DNA of 64,000 nucleotides from Melanopsichium pennsylvanicum (taxonomy: Eukaryota > Basidiomycota > Ustilaginomycetes > Ustilaginales): positions 558,001 to 622,000 of the forward strand of contig OAPG01000004.1 of assembly GCA_900208305.1 (NCBI GenBank), in the 5' to 3' direction. How positions within the stretch are numbered: the first letter of the stretch is position 1; every line of letters begins with the position of its first letter. The notes below the pieces were generated by a model that ran no database searches, was not told the DNA's origin, and saw nothing but the letters and a program-made list of their open reading frames with translations. This document shows, piece by piece, positions 22,992-30,008 of the stretch. Position numbers and translations under genes: made by a program.

Positions 22992-23745
22992 GCGACACCG
23001 TCTAGCTTGATTACAGGTCGACAAAGTCGCAACGCCCTATTACCATAAATTGTGCGCTTGGGTAATCCCAGCTGTTCAACCGTTCTTCCCCTCCATACTC
23101 GTACCAATTCCAGTCTCGATTTCACAGCCTCAGCATATAAGCCGACCAACGAACCAGATACCCTAGAATCAACATCAGTCTCATCTCTTGCTTTCACTCT
23201 GCTACATTACACATCACGCTCAGCAATCTCAACCTGTCCCGCTTTCCGAATGTTGCGAAAGAAGCCTATCCCTGCATGCTATTCCCTGCTACTCCAGTGT
23301 TTTCATCTGCTGTTCTCAACGCTGTTTCATGACCCACTTCTGAATATTGTTGGACAAAGCTCCGACTAGTTCGTATCTTTGGGGCTGCGCATCTCTGCTG
23401 TGAGAGGATCATGCGATTGGGTTTGATGAGATGCTGAATAGTTAGAACGCCAAGGGTTTTCAGATGGGAATGGTTGTGGCGGGCGGGATTCGGGAATGCA
23501 CAAAGACAGGCCGGTGTTTTGACTTTCACGCGAAGCCGGAAAATGTGGAGATCAGGGTCCTCCTTCTTGTCTTTTGCACAGCGTACTTTGCTTCAACTCC
23601 ACGTCGAACCTGCCATCATCATCTTCACCAGACTTACCATCTGTACCGGCTCTCACACGGCTATCGTCTTCAAAAGTGCTTGTACACCAGCCCCGAGACC
23701 TTGCATAGACAGACAAATCTCGGATCTGCATTTCAATCTGTCAAC
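22992..23745. other. intergenic / leader of next gene
   Basis: About 750 bp between two plus-strand genes. The frame of the next gene is open upstream of its likely start, but that translation (His/Cys-rich, no domain) looks like untranslated leader. Nothing else is seen. Confidence 0.5.
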
Positions 23746-25155
23746 ATGGTGGACAATTCAAAAGGGAAAGGAAAAGCTCCGTCTTCCTCCCAACCTTCGT
23801 CTAATCGCGATGAGCAAGAGCGGGCGTCATCAAATAGAGGAGGAGTAAGCAGTACATCTCAGAGCTTGGCGTCATCATTACGTTCGTCCATGGCAGCTTC
23901 CCAGCTCGGGTCACTCATGCAAGGGATATCTGGAGGCAAGGCTGAATTCCAGCCTTCTGGAGGAAGTTCGGGGACAGAGCTAAGGGATTGGCTGGTGCAA
24001 GATCTTCGCGGCGCCTCTGGAGGCTCTCCACAAGCTTTAAATGCTACGAGCCGTTCACATACACAGGCCTTTCGGACTTCAGCAGGACTGGACATTGAGC
24101 AGGACAAGTTGTTTGACGACTTTTCTCAGGGCCTCGTCTTGGACAAAACTTCCGGGCAATCTGAACAAGCCGACTTCAGGATACAGCAAGACCTCTTGTC
24201 GAATTCCCAAGCGGTTGATCAGGCTTGGAAGGACTCTGTTAAAGACAACAGCGCAAGCGAAAGTAGATGGATCAGCACTGGCGTCAACCCAACATCAGCC
24301 CGACCTATTCAATCTTATACCGATTTTGACTCTCCACTGCACGAAGCTGTTCGGCAACAACACTCACCACAATACACCTCTTATGCCAACATGGGCACGA
24401 CCACTGCTATTGCTTACCAGTCCGCAAGTGCAGCGCCATTAGCACTGACAGACGACATCTTTGCCTTGCTGGATTCCGAACAACAACCCTCCGAACCAAC
24501 TTTCACATCTGATTCAAACGCACCGAGCTTCGCTCCTTCAGCCGAGTCGAAGTCCACACTGGCTTTAACGACCAATGACAGCAGTTTGAACGTGGTATTG
24601 TCCAAGTTCGACCCTCATTATCGCTCACCAAGTCCATCCAATGAAGGCTTTACACGGGAACAGGCAACGTTGCACATGCAACTAGCGAAAGCCCAAGCTT
24701 CCGAACAAGGACGACAGGAACTGCAGATGCCTCGACCTGACAATCCAACTCTCCAGGAAGGAGTCTATGCAGCCACCGCCCTAGAAGCTCTCAAAAGTGT
24801 TTTTGAAGGACGAGGTGACAGCACTCGGGTCACCGAAGAAGAAGAAAAATCACAAGATAGGTCAAGTGATGTGGTCCGAAAGATCACAAAGTACTTTAGT
24901 GCTTCGACATACTTGGATGACGTTTATGGAGTCTGTCCTTTGCTGAGAGAGACTATTGAGGAGGCGATAAAGCCGAAAGTTGAGGCTGATGATGAGACAA
25001 GTGCAGCGCAGGAAGCGAAGAGGCAGAAGGCGATCCAAAGACTGGAAAGCTTGTGGAATCATCTTAGCAACAAGCAGCCTGCATCCACTACAAATACTAC
25101 TAGTAATGCGCAAGGAACTGAGTGGGTGGATAGCTGGCTTCGGAACAACACCTGA
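23746..25155 (+). CDS. uncharacterised conserved-looking protein
   Basis: Intronless frame of 469 residues from the ATG at 23746. The frame stays open to 23464, but the extra part lacks protein-like composition and the sequence around the internal Met (MVDNSKGKGK) is a better start. I do not recognise a family. The first third is Ser/Gln/Gly-rich. The middle carries short hydrophobic-acidic blocks (ELRDWLVQDL; KLFDDFSQGL; DDIFALLDSE) of the kind used as docking motifs. The last third (about 330-450) is helical and charged, with a block STYLDDVYGVCPLL followed by a predicted coiled coil. There is no signal peptide and no membrane segment. It runs convergently into the phospholipase-AcpS gene, with 177 bp between the stops. 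Confidence 0.7.
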   Translation: MVDNSKGKGKAPSSSQPSSNRDEQERASSNRGGVSSTSQSLASSLRSSMAASQLGSLMQGISGGKAEFQPSGGSSGTELRDWLVQDLRGASGGSPQALNATSRSHTQAFRTSAGLDIEQDKLFDDFSQGLVLDKTSGQSEQADFRIQQDLLSNSQAVDQAWKDSVKDNSASESRWISTGVNPTSARPIQSYTDFDSPLHEAVRQQHSPQYTSYANMGTTTAIAYQSASAAPLALTDDIFALLDSEQQPSEPTFTSDSNAPSFAPSAESKSTLALTTNDSSLNVVLSKFDPHYRSPSPSNEGFTREQATLHMQLAKAQASEQGRQELQMPRPDNPTLQEGVYAATALEALKSVFEGRGDSTRVTEEEEKSQDRSSDVVRKITKYFSASTYLDDVYGVCPLLRETIEEAIKPKVEADDETSAAQEAKRQKAIQRLESLWNHLSNKQPASTTNTTSNAQGTEWVDSWLRNNT

Positions 25156-25332: not shown

Positions 25333-28300
25333 TCACCCAAGAGTTGTGGTAGATGAAGACGAAAGTCGAGCAGCTTTCTTCTCCTCATACACATGTCGCA
25401 GAACCTGACGAATCGTGTGCAACGCATACCGTTCGAGATTGGCCTCCGAAGTGGTTAGCAGAGATTTGATTTGGGTGGGAGTCCAAACAAGATTGTAAGA
25501 GTTGCTGAAATTTGATGTGGCCGGATCGTACTCTGCGTTGATTTTATTTGGTAAAAGGGGACAATAGATTAACCAAAATTCTGATTCGTCCACTTCTCGT
25601 TTGCCTTTCAACACCCGCGCGTATTGATCCAAGAACTTTTGCTCAATTTCCTCACCCAATGTCGACTTTGTAGAACTACGAGAAGTAGAAGATGGGTAAG
25701 AAGAAGAATCTTCGGGTGTGAGAGGGTCAAAGTAGGGACCGGGAGGATTGAAAAGATGAGTGCAATCGGAAAGAGAGATTTGACAGTCATCAGCAAAGTT
25801 GTGAATGCGCCTCATAGCAGAGCCAGCTTGAACATCCGACGAGGCATCAAACGCAATGATGATCTCAGCGCCGCGCTCGATTCGGGCCAAGATATGGTTT
25901 GGGAGATTGTTAGACATTCCTGAATCCATCAAGCGGATTCTTCCGGATGACTCCCAAGAGACAGCGTCTTGCGGGCGTTCTAGTTTTGGTGAGATATCAC
26001 CATCCGGTGCAGCCGCGCCTACGCTTACCGACCTGCCCAATTGCGAGATACTACCATCTTCTAGTGTTTCTTGAATGGGAGAACTTGAGGGAAAATCGAC
26101 TTGGAGATTCGTGAAATCTTCGACACTCTTTGATTGCGGTCGCCCTTTGACATCAAGTGACTTAGTGTCTTCAGCTAGAACGTTGGCCACCACATATTCT
26201 CCGTCGTGAGAAACGCTCAGGTGTAGTTTTGGCAGAGCATTGACGCCAGGATGCTTCGACTTCCACTCGTTCGAGAATGAGATTACCGGCTTCTTGGTTC
26301 GATGACCTTGGCTCTCGGATTGTGCCAGATTCACCCCATCAATCGGCGCGCCAGAGCGAGTGCCGGGTTTATGCACGCACAGATCTTTCCAAGATGCTAC
26401 GTAGCGCGGATATAACGCTTTGTACGCTGCTTCCTTGGCAACCCATCGTGTCGCAAGGTACTTTTCAAGGGAGTCGAGGGTGGTCACTTGGGCGTATTCG
26501 TCTTGTTCCGATTTGCACAGAATTCGTTTGGCGAGCTTGTCCAGCCCCTCTCGGCGACCATTCTCTGTCTCAATGACTGTATCAGATTTAGATCGAGCGC
26601 CGCGCCTATGCACGAATTGCTGCAAACGAGGGAGGTGCAAGATGTCGATGCCTATCCCCAGGATGCTGGTCTTTGCAGCGTTCTGAGGAGAAATCTTGGG
26701 CACCGGGTTTACATTCAAGCCATAAAAAGGATTCGGCTCGTCCCCAGCACGAATGGGATTGCCCCACCTTTTCTCCCACCTTTTCATCCTGACAAAGTTG
26801 TTCAAGAAATGTAATATTCTCGACATGACCGTGCCTTTGGGTAGCGACGCCAGCAGCGCCGAGATGTATCCAGTCAGAGGACCTGCGGGTGCAGAAGTAC
26901 ACTGTCCGAGAAGGAGGGAGAGCGATTCTTCAGGTCTTCGGTCAAGGGAGCGGCCAGAGACGAAAGGACGACCCCAGGCCCACGTTGGCAAGTAGCCTTG
27001 TACATCGGATGAGCCGACTTCGAGTGGAGTCGCTTCAAACCACTGAAAATATCCTTTCGCCACCGGAAGGGCGTATATGTCACTTCTATCATCAACGTTC
27101 GTCGGAGTCTGTGTGTTAGGAATTAGTTCGATGGTAGTGGTGGATGGCTGGATGGAAGCATCAGAGGTCGACTTGATATCGGTGAGAGCCTTTGACGCTG
27201 CCGACTGATGCTGAGTAAGAGCCCTGTTGGGCGGCTGCCCTTTGCTAAGAGACGAGTCTGTATGAGGTCGAACACCAGGTGCATCCCGAGGAGCCACCCT
27301 GACAGCAGTGAAGATGGGCAATGGTTCTTTGCCCTCGTTGATGCCGCTCCTATCCCACACCCTGGAGAACTGGAAGGTAGCCCTGCTGAGCCTTGCTCTC
27401 GGCTCCCTTGACAAGAACTGATATGTTGTGGTCAGAGTGGCGTAAAGGTCCATGATTCCGAGACCGACAATGCCTGCTTGAGCCTTTCTGATCAGGGGTC
27501 CGAGCAGAAAGTAAACGCCCCTACTGCTACGGGCAACGGTATCCAAGGCATTTACACTCATGGGATGAGCTAGCTCATTGGCCACCGCCAAGAAGTGCTT
27601 GACCAACCTCTCGGCGTCTTGGTAGGCAATGGTGTAGTAGGCAGCCAAAGTCCAACAGCTCCCGCTCACTCCACCTGCCCAAGAGATGCAATCCCAAAGC
27701 GTGGAGCGTTTGGAGGCAGCGATGAAGCCCGCAAACCCATACATTGCTCTGTAGCCTCCACCCGAACCGCCGAGCGCGACTAGGGGAACATCGCGTGGGT
27801 CGACTTTTTCATGAGGGGAAAGTGACAGGAAATGCCTGAGGGAGTCGGAGCCTTGGCAAGATATTTGGTTCTGACGTTTGAGTAGGAACTTGGATTCTTC
27901 CGGGTGAAGGGATGAAGAGCGCCGCACGGTAGCATCCCAGTCGAGCTCAGGGTAGGCTTTGCGATCGGTGACATCTGCGCGGAGAAGGGCTTGGACTTGG
28001 GCGAGATCTCTAGCTCTCTGTCTCCAGCGCATCACAATGCGCCGAAAGAACGGGGCCTCAGCATTTGGGCCGAGTACCTCAGGGGAGATGACTACTTGGT
28101 TACTGGTATCTGGTGTAAGTGAGTGGGGTGCCAAAGAGGTTGATGTGACGACATTTTGGTTGGGTATCGGAAACGGATGCTCAACTGGGACGATTCGGGG
28201 GCCGAGTCGAGTTTGTATGAGTCGATATCTGTTGAGTTGAAGTGTCTGTCCGAGCTGCGGGATACGCGAAGAGACAGGAGCTGCTTGGAAGAGAGTGACG

Positions 28301-28371
28301 AGCGCACAGAGACAGTAGACCTTGATGTAGAGGTAGGTGGGGCTCTGGCGTAACGACGTCAGGATTGGCAT
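25333..28371 (-). CDS. cPLA2-type phospholipase with an AcpS phosphopantetheinyl transferase inserted in its catalytic domain
   Basis: One uninterrupted 1012-residue frame. Residues about 12-31 form a hydrophobic signal or anchor. Residues 187-560 and 805-990 are the two halves of a cytosolic phospholipase A2/lysophospholipase domain. They contain the oxyanion Gly cluster GGSGGGYRAM (201-210), nucleophile Ser236 in GVSGS, and Asp816 in LMDSGMSNN. Between them, at 569-731, lies a complete AcpS-type holo-ACP synthase: GIGIDI with metal ligand Asp576, RILCKSEQDEY, then ATRWVAKEAAYKAL with Glu647 and Lys651, and LSVSHDGEYVVANVL at the end. AcpS enzymes transfer 4'-phosphopantetheine from CoA to acyl carrier protein; in fungi this serves mitochondrial ACP. 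There is no Met between 529 and 815, so a separate internal gene is unlikely. Both sets of catalytic residues are present. The gene is divergent from the Cox16-Erv1 gene. Confidence 0.88.
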   Translation of the reverse strand: MPILTSLRQSPTYLYIKVYCLCALVTLFQAAPVSSRIPQLGQTLQLNRYRLIQTRLGPRIVPVEHPFPIPNQNVVTSTSLAPHSLTPDTSNQVVISPEVLGPNAEAPFFRRIVMRWRQRARDLAQVQALLRADVTDRKAYPELDWDATVRRSSSLHPEESKFLLKRQNQISCQGSDSLRHFLSLSPHEKVDPRDVPLVALGGSGGGYRAMYGFAGFIAASKRSTLWDCISWAGGVSGSCWTLAAYYTIAYQDAERLVKHFLAVANELAHPMSVNALDTVARSSRGVYFLLGPLIRKAQAGIVGLGIMDLYATLTTTYQFLSREPRARLSRATFQFSRVWDRSGINEGKEPLPIFTAVRVAPRDAPGVRPHTDSSLSKGQPPNRALTQHQSAASKALTDIKSTSDASIQPSTTTIELIPNTQTPTNVDDRSDIYALPVAKGYFQWFEATPLEVGSSDVQGYLPTWAWGRPFVSGRSLDRRPEESLSLLLGQCTSAPAGPLTGYISALLASLPKGTVMSRILHFLNNFVRMKRWEKRWGNPIRAGDEPNPFYGLNVNPVPKISPQNAAKTSILGIGIDILHLPRLQQFVHRRGARSKSDTVIETENGRREGLDKLAKRILCKSEQDEYAQVTTLDSLEKYLATRWVAKEAAYKALYPRYVASWKDLCVHKPGTRSGAPIDGVNLAQSESQGHRTKKPVISFSNEWKSKHPGVNALPKLHLSVSHDGEYVVANVLAEDTKSLDVKGRPQSKSVEDFTNLQVDFPSSSPIQETLEDGSISQLGRSVSVGAAAPDGDISPKLERPQDAVSWESSGRIRLMDSGMSNNLPNHILARIERGAEIIIAFDASSDVQAGSAMRRIHNFADDCQISLSDCTHLFNPPGPYFDPLTPEDSSSYPSSTSRSSTKSTLGEEIEQKFLDQYARVLKGKREVDESEFWLIYCPLLPNKINAEYDPATSNFSNSYNLVWTPTQIKSLLTTSEANLERYALHTIRQVLRHVYEEKKAARLSSSSTTTLG

Positions 28372-28860: not shown

Positions 28861-30008
28861 ATGCCGACATTTGATTCGAAGCCATTACGAAAGTCAAACT
28901 CGGTTCTTGCGAGACTGGCGCCGCAAGTACGTCGAAGACCGCTTCTCTTTTTTGGTCTTCCCTTCCTCGCCACCATTGTCGGTGCCAGTTTTGGGCTTGC
29001 CAACCTCACCCAAACTCGATATGATTACAATGCAACCAAGGTGCAGACCATCACCAAGCAAGAGGAGCTGCGCATGAAGAAGGATCGAAAGCGAATCGAT
29101 ATTCGCGAGGAATACTTTGTAAGTTTACATCTATCCGTGTCCTATCGTAGTCTTTGCGACCACGTTTGACTCACATTCATCTATCTTGCTTGAATCGGCA
29201 TTTATAGAGGCTTCAAGCCAAACAGGACGAACTCGAAGACTGGGAGCCAAAACGTATTGAGCGTCCTGAAGGTGTAGCAGATTGGGGTGTGGCGCCAACC
29301 AATTACCGTTCGATTCAAAACGAGAGCCTGACGGGCCAAGATGCTGCGAACGAGAAGAGTCAAGGATTCACGGCTGCCAATGTGGGCTCTTCCCGTAAGC
29401 AGCCACAGGTGGTGCTGGGACCCGATGGAAAGCCATGCCGCGCTTGTAATTCGAAACTTGCGTTTGCTGCCGCTATGAAGGGAGCCAAAGTACCCCCTAA
29501 CACCTCTTCGCCATCACAGAAGCCACCAACATCAGCAGGCTCCACTAGCGCAACGGCAGCAGCGTCAGCAGCGTCAGCAGCTGCTGCCGCATCTCTGGCA
29601 TCATCTTCCCCTCCGTCTGAGAAGGAGTGTCCACCCGACGGTGAAGAATTAGGACGATCAACCTGGATTCTATTGCACTCTGCGGCGGCATACTTTCCCG
29701 AAGATCCATCAGCGCATCAGCAAAGCTCCATGCTGGCACTCTTCCGTGCTCTACCACACGTCTACCCTTGCCACTCGTGCGCGGAGGCGTTGGGCGAGGA
29801 ATACCAGAGGGAAGAGAGGGAAGGCGGATGGGAAGATAGCAAGTTGAGATTGGTTGAAGCTGTAAAGTCGGGTTCAGGACTCAGAAAGTGGCTTTGTGGG
29901 ATTCACAATGAGGTGAACTCGAGGTTGGGGAAGCCCAAATTTGACTGCAGTGAAGACAAGCTAAAGGAGAGATGGTTCGAGGGACCAGCTGATGGCAGCT
30001 GCGACTAA
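28861..30008 (+). CDS. Cox16-Erv1 fusion: COX assembly factor joined to FAD-linked sulfhydryl oxidase
   Basis: Two exons, 28861-29118 and 29208-30008, joined in phase 0 across an 89-bp intron (GTAAGT...TTTATAG), give 352 residues. Residues 1-115 are Cox16: a basic N-terminus, one membrane segment at about 28-47, then KKDRKRIDIREEYF|RLQAKQ and DWEPKRIERPEGV, with the intron exactly inside the conserved block. The frame continues without a stop into Erv1. That part has the shuttle pair C163-x-x-C166 in GPDGKPCRACN, an Ala/Ser-rich linker, and the FAD domain from about 227 (GRSTWILLHSAAAYFP). Active-site C274-H-S-C277 and the C316/C333 pair around HNEVNSRLGKPKFDC follow. Erv1 reoxidises Mia40 in the intermembrane space; Cox16 works on Cox2 in the inner membrane. 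The Erv1 part has no Met before its shuttle pair, which supports one polypeptide. Confidence 0.9.

Follow-up and report, generated by a model that had tools for sequence, protein, structure and literature searches.

The window analyzed here is a 64,000-nucleotide stretch of the genome of Melanopsichium pennsylvanicum, a member of the Ustilaginales (GenBank assembly GCA_900208305.1, contig OAPG01000004.1, positions 558,001 to 622,000). On its reverse strand, at 25333–28371, lies a single intron-free reading frame of 1012 codons, running from ATG to stop. The frame encodes one protein, a phospholipase of the cytosolic phospholipase A2 (cPLA2) type that contains a complete nested 4′-phosphopantetheinyl transferase (PPTase) of the AcpS/Ppt2 type, and the active sites of both enzymes are intact. 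The features of the gene, numbered by position in the window, are as follows.

25333–28371, reverse strand: whole gene, encoding the 1012-residue phospholipase with nested AcpS/Ppt2-type PPTase (single open frame, Pfam, homologues)
28228–28371, reverse strand: residues 1–48, basic, acid-free, partly hydrophobic conserved leader, a putative membrane anchor and/or mitochondrial targeting sequence
26719–27954, reverse strand: residues 140–551, N-terminal part of the cPLA2-type catalytic domain, with NPFYG at its end
27754–27771, reverse strand: residues 201–206, glycine-rich GGSGGG ahead of the nucleophile (202–206 kept in 47/47)
27664–27666, reverse strand: Ser236, catalytic serine (GVSGS), equivalent to Ser228 of cPLA2-alpha (47/47)
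26671–26718, reverse strand: residues 552–567, first linker, variable in the alignment (532–565 with predicted local distance difference test score, pLDDT, <50)
26164–26670, reverse strand: residues 568–736, nested AcpS/Ppt2-type module
26644–26646, reverse strand: Asp576 of AcpS (GIGID), in 20/20 intact nested modules, 27/27 stand-alone enzymes and 0/11 ascomycete-type inserts
26431–26433, reverse strand: Glu647 of AcpS (WVAKEAAYKAL), in 20/20, 27/27 and 0/11 of the same sets
26419–26421, reverse strand: Lys651 of AcpS, in 20/20, 27/27 and 7/11
26200–26217, reverse strand: residues 719–724, SVSHDG of AcpS (alignments)
25957–26163, reverse strand: residues 737–805, second linker, variable and of low model confidence
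25336–25956, reverse strand: residues 806–1012, C-terminal part of the phospholipase domain (alignments)
25924–25926, reverse strand: Asp816, catalytic aspartate (MDSGM), equivalent to Asp549 of cPLA2-alpha (47/47)

Pfam places PLA2_B (PF01735) at residues 198–361 (E value 2e-13; 50.1 bits, cut-off 23) and ACPS (PF01648) at residues 573–667 (5.9e-10; 39.6 bits in the full protein and 44.6 bits in the module alone, cut-off 25), and it reports no C2 domain for this protein. The NCBIfam model TIGR00556 scores 49.7 bits with the module alone, above its cut-off of 45.35, and 41.2 bits with the full protein. Against TIGR00516, the bacterial AcpS equivalog, the module reaches 44.9 bits and falls below the cut-off of 59.8, as do the four stand-alone fungal-type Ppt2 proteins tested (42.3–54.2 bits); the module is therefore fungal Ppt2-like rather than a bacterial AcpS. 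Human cPLA2-alpha aligns with the protein in three pieces (155–247, 441–517 and 782–845), and the transferase module lies entirely between the second and the third. Ser236 corresponds to human Ser228 by alignment and Asp816 to Asp549 by way of the insert-free homologue P0028. A preceding sequence-only reading of this DNA had described the phospholipase Ser and Asp as flanking a full AcpS module, and the alignments and Pfam matches bear this out.

The AcpS motifs GIGID (from residue 572), KEAAYK (646–651) and SVSHDG (from residue 719) are all intact, as that reading had also stated. We take the assigned AcpS roles to fall to the Asp of the GxD motif, the Glu and Lys of KExxxK, and the Ser-His pair of the C-terminal strand. 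A chance open frame is ruled out by the stop counts within the insert: its own frame has none, the other two frames of the same strand have 13 and 12, and the antisense frames have 10, 5 and 6. The last Met ahead of the module is residue 529 and the next is in the MDSGM block, in keeping with the earlier observation that the interval lacks a Met; of the 21 smut-type proteins scanned, 16 have a Met inside or after the module. An AlphaFold prediction of the protein as a single chain gives confident cores for both folds, that of AcpS and that of cPLA2 around Ser236 and Asp816, which is consistent with the proposal that the module was inserted into a loop and that both folds could form.

The nested architecture recurs in other fungi. 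The homologue searches scored the 7991 and 7998 candidates that shared most words with the queries, and the distribution described here is a lower bound; the phospholipase and AcpS matches considered are the best 120 of 207 and the best 120 of 861, respectively. Both anchor motifs occur in 107 of the best 120 phospholipase homologues, at a spacing of 199–288 residues in 32 and of less than 130 residues (median 54) in 75; the shortest insert-free loops in the aligned subset measure 11–13 residues (P0045 and P0028). Among the matches listed, the long form is found in the basidiomycete genera Ustilago, Sporisorium, Pseudozyma, Kalmanozyma and Testicularia and in the ascomycete genera Stachybotrys, Paramyrothecium, Dactylonectria, Ilyonectria, Thelonectria and Mariannaea. 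Of the 120 listed homologues, 47 make up alignment A3 and the phospholipase tree; P0029 (Kalmanozyma, N terminus missing) was left out, and P0114 is C-terminally truncated and of odd composition. Species names are attached to 8 of the 20 smut-type rows, 8 of the 11 rows with an ascomycete-type insert and 20 of the 27 ascomycete-type phospholipase rows, the others having been placed by the trees.

In all 20 aligned Ustilaginales-type proteins, the window protein included, the module occupies the same site and retains Asp576, Glu647, Lys651, Ser721 and His722, the same five residues that are present in each of the 27 stand-alone proteins aligned. Ser236 and Asp816 are found in all 47 aligned phospholipases. 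The arrangement common to these 20 proteins is no accident of assembly or annotation: besides the window protein, the other 19 sequences of the set show it, and they represent several named genera and come from NCBI, ENA and other sources. An error of assembly or gene model at the two junctions, which the sequence-only reading had raised, is thus refuted by recurrence in many independent sequences, and we regard an artefact as practically excluded. The same reading knew of no described protein of this design. Among the open-access papers listed, judged by titles and the beginnings of abstracts, none described a phospholipase/AcpS fusion, although public protein databases do contain it, in entries that have both Pfam domains and are titled Lysophospholipase or "related to phospholipase A2, cytosolic".

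The PPTase content of the Melanopsichium pennsylvanicum genome (21.1 Mb, 61 contigs) was searched. The ACPS family matches three places at E values up to 1: the fatty acid synthase frame, an Sfp-type frame and the nested-module gene. The search returned no second AcpS/Ppt2-type gene; the stand-alone queries P0128 and P0140 (Botryobasidium) match only the nested gene at E values up to 10. Twelve PP-binding places are present, one of which, on contig 5, is in a short gene. Its three exons, read by eye, encode just one small carrier protein, which starts with a basic leader and from its sequence is taken to be the mitochondrial-type acyl carrier protein (ACP). The Sfp-type PPTase lies in a 1081-residue open frame (L025:696-3941; contig C9:139195-142440) behind an indoleamine 2,3-dioxygenase domain. 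All three PPTase places of the genome sit in frames with other enzymes, in the Sfp-type case as a fusion or as two adjoining genes.

Among the best 120 of 861 AcpS matches, stand-alone AcpS-type enzymes are found in Tilletia, a smut in the wide sense (P0125, P0127 and P0131), and in Pucciniomycotina, Agaricomycotina and Mucoromycota, and no full stand-alone enzyme comes from a named member of the Ustilaginales. Three candidates for one were rejected, each judged from the protein alone: P0123 starts within the phospholipase, continues through NPFYG into the module and is a fragment; P0126, in which another reading frame is seemingly joined to the module, looks like a model error; and P0195 (Ustilago sp.) is a partial copy that lacks the GxD segment. 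The stand-alone proteins P0124 and P0128 have no assigned species, and any fungus could be their source. In Rhizopus, P0121 and P0122 carry an intact-looking AcpS beside LIM and RhoGAP domains, with no phospholipase, and are probably merged models of neighboring genes.

According to the available text of PMC3360786, the AcpS-type Ppt2 of yeast activates the mitochondrial ACP exclusively and has PptB as its Aspergillus counterpart; pptB is essential in Aspergillus fumigatus and PPT2 in Candida albicans, as stated in the available part of PMC4659657. Given these roles, the lack of a second AcpS-type gene and the presence of a small ACP, the nested module most likely serves Melanopsichium pennsylvanicum as its mitochondrial-type PPTase. 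The suggestion that the AcpS part could be the only mitochondrial ACP-activating enzyme of the cell is thus strongly favored by gene content and residue conservation, with the function itself predicted from sequence.

The ascomycete versions of the gene differ. Eleven ascomycete-type proteins carry the insert at the same phospholipase site, and all 11 have lost Asp576 and Glu647, with Lys651 kept in seven. These apparent pseudo-PPTases are P0020–P0023, P0027, P0030, P0031, P0033, P0035, P0037 and P0039, from Stachybotrys, Dactylonectria and relatives. An AcpS fold is still modeled in the one decayed insert tested, that of P0021, in a prediction whose alignment included intact relatives and whose quality beyond the insert is low (mean pLDDT 59.9, predicted template modeling score 0.42). 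The other ascomycete-type phospholipases have no insert and retain the Ser-Asp dyad. Because the ascomycete forms keep this dyad with the insert dead or absent, the host phospholipase needs no PPTase activity.

The explanation that we favor, to which as a whole we assign a probability of about 0.7, is a bifunctional phospholipase with a nested PPTase, the sole one of AcpS type, that acts on mitochondrial ACP, in a gene that was probably transferred between phyla. An ordinary fungal mitochondrial-type PPTase (Ppt2/AcpS) would have been inserted into a loop of a cPLA2-type phospholipase, where it separates the two parts of that enzyme's catalytic domain. The module would most likely move 4′-phosphopantetheine from coenzyme A onto the conserved serine of the mitochondrial ACP, and the Ser-Asp dyad would cleave a membrane lipid; the two activities would share a polypeptide and probably a location, not a reaction. 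The phospholipase gene would then probably have crossed from a smut relative to Pezizomycotina, with the catalysis of the insert lost there and the insert itself absent in several lines. Both activities, the location, ACP as the substrate and an AcpS-type trimer of the fused protein are what we infer from this evidence. Bacterial AcpS is a trimer with shared active sites.

Other accounts of the insert were weighed against this explanation. One of them is improbable: an internal promoter or another first exon would yield the AcpS module as a product of its own, and the long frame would serve as genomic packaging, with a full fusion that is minor or inactive. Of the 21 smut-type proteins scanned, 19 do have a Met 43 residues ahead of GIGID, and the other two have one at 46 and 56 residues; the stretch that follows it is basic, and the public model P0123 starts there. 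However, none of the 21 has a Met between that conserved upstream position and the motif, a product begun there would still run into the second phospholipase half, as the frame in the window has no stop, and the insert-free relatives show that the two phospholipase halves belong together. Still more improbable is a module that lacks catalysis and has a structural role in the smut-type proteins as well, with the Sfp-type enzyme activating the mitochondrial ACP, given that all five residues of the catalytic motifs persist in 20 of 20 proteins whose modules differ from each other at up to 54% of positions. The least probable of these accounts is the functional coupling suggested by the sequence-only reading, in which acyl release from lipid would regulate or feed the loading of ACP. 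The physical linkage of the two enzymes and the position of the insert immediately ahead of the catalytic-Asp segment speak for it, but PPTases transfer phosphopantetheine, not acyl chains, and the ascomycete relatives, which retain the phospholipase without a working PPTase, speak against it; the coupling is not supported.

The history of the module was examined in a large AcpS tree of 59 rows, made by a quick method, and in a finished tree of 32 rows with a full set of support values (10 of the 21 intact modules, 4 of the 11 decayed ones and 18 of the 27 stand-alone enzymes), both from a sample that contains no ascomycete stand-alone Ppt2. In the finished tree, the nested modules all group together (84/95), the decayed modules form one group (100/99) within the intact ones, and P0114 is outermost (96/95 for the remainder). 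The sister of the decayed group is Testicularia alone in the 59-row tree (81) and Testicularia with Pseudozyma flocculosa in the 32-row tree (92/42). The nested modules join stand-alone enzymes of Agaricomycotina in the 59-row tree (87, an open fork). In the phospholipase tree, all 27 ascomycete-type proteins fall into a single group (99), the smut core and the ascomycetes are split from P. flocculosa and P0114 (98), and the three states of the insert need four changes. Eight of the 27 ascomycete-type phospholipases are nearer to the window protein than is P. flocculosa, a result that favors transfer between phyla over descent from a common ancestor, and the topology of the AcpS tree points to a smut relative as the donor. 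Inter-phylum transfer followed by loss of catalysis in ascomycetes fits these trees best, with a smut relative probably the donor and Pezizomycotina the recipient. The argument that a dead enzyme is not revived leaves the direction of transfer unfixed. A different history, in which the insert was already present in the common ancestor of Ascomycota and Basidiomycota, or was born in ascomycetes and passed to smuts while active, is unlikely but deserves serious consideration, as the tree of the phospholipases has no root and a single clade of intact modules is statistically acceptable (see below). An ancestral insert would require many losses and sits poorly with the eight ascomycete-type proteins just mentioned; an ascomycete origin is opposed by the position of the decayed modules within the intact ones, by the outermost place of P0114 and, with the ascomycete Ppt2 outside the sample, by the junction with Agaricomycotina enzymes.

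The location of the fusion protein would be mitochondrial. Asp and Glu are absent from the first 40 residues of all 20 smut-type proteins, and the leader is basic and moderately hydrophobic, a composition compatible with either a mitochondrial presequence or a membrane anchor but diagnostic of neither. A helix is modeled at residues 11–48 with low confidence. Directly upstream and divergent, at 28861–30008 on the forward strand, lie COX16 and a gene of the Erv1/Alr family, both mitochondrial by family; as a hint at location, these neighbors are only suggestive. Downstream and convergent, at 23464–25155 on the forward strand, is a frame of 563 residues that from 23749 has no Pfam match at E values up to 0.01.

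Several observations weigh against the favored explanation. The ACP sits in the mitochondrial matrix. AoPlaA, a cPLA2-like protein of Aspergillus oryzae, is placed in the mitochondrial intermembrane space in the available text of PMC4931635. The leader is strongly conserved, even in ascomycetes, and presequences are usually far less so; it may therefore be an anchor with another address. The Sfp-type enzyme could be the activator of the mitochondrial ACP, and a different enzyme in that role is not ruled out in the available part of PMC4659657. The absence of a second AcpS gene from other Ustilaginales is extrapolated from the one genome searched, and such a gene is possible there because many matches have no species and 741 lie beyond the best 120. 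The insert diverges about four times as fast as the phospholipase core both in the intact set (3.96-fold, 171 pairs) and in the decayed set (3.66-fold, 55 pairs), so overall rates show no stronger selection on the intact insert; by the same ratio, relaxed selection on the insert, as judged by overall rate, is not supported. A single clade of all intact modules is not rejected by the approximately unbiased (AU) test (p-AU 0.212), and the phospholipase tree was made by a quick method and is unrooted. Finally, a separate Ppt2 is expected in the dead-insert ascomycetes by extrapolation from the literature, filamentous ascomycetes generally possessing their own Ppt2 according to the available text of PMC3360786.

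Comparison with known systems places the protein among familiar families. It shares with the Ppt2/PptB enzymes of yeast, A. fumigatus and C. albicans the family, the conserved residues and the likely substrate, mitochondrial ACP, but those are small separate proteins, whereas the module in the window sits inside a phospholipase and lacks its own Met close to the point where it begins. Unlike the group IV cytosolic phospholipases A2 (PLA2_B), the window protein has no Pfam-reported C2 domain, and it has a 169-residue enzyme before the Asp block and a conserved leader. Enzymes nested within other proteins are known in general. The fungal type I fatty acid synthase, also encoded in this genome, likewise carries a PPTase within a larger lipid enzyme, but there the PPTase ends its frame and, in the available text of PMC3360786, serves its own enzyme, whereas the module in the window interrupts an unrelated catalytic domain. 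AoPlaA is another fungal cPLA2-like protein, reported from mitochondria, the predicted location of the window protein; its N terminus differs from that of the window protein. As far as the open-access literature goes, the combination of a PPTase within a phospholipase is new, and nested enzymes as such are not.

If the favored explanation is correct, an enzyme whose counterparts, pptB of A. fumigatus and PPT2 of C. albicans, are essential, as stated in the available part of PMC4659657, exists here only inside another catalytic domain, perhaps throughout an order of mostly plant-pathogenic fungi, and the fused gene is the candidate activator of mitochondrial ACP in Ustilaginales. A search aimed at a stand-alone Ppt2 gene would score it as missing, and the name Lysophospholipase masks the second activity. 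At a little short of even odds, the Ustilaginales would have no free-standing mitochondrial PPTase, and the enzyme for mitochondrial ACP, hence for lipoate synthesis and respiration, would be found only inside a phospholipase; the host gene would have crossed phyla, with the redundant insert kept folded but dead or excised, so that one family would record birth, transfer and decay. Such a protein would test how far one enzyme tolerates interruption by another, and the three states of the insert, active, dead and absent, would offer a natural series for asking why nested enzymes persist.

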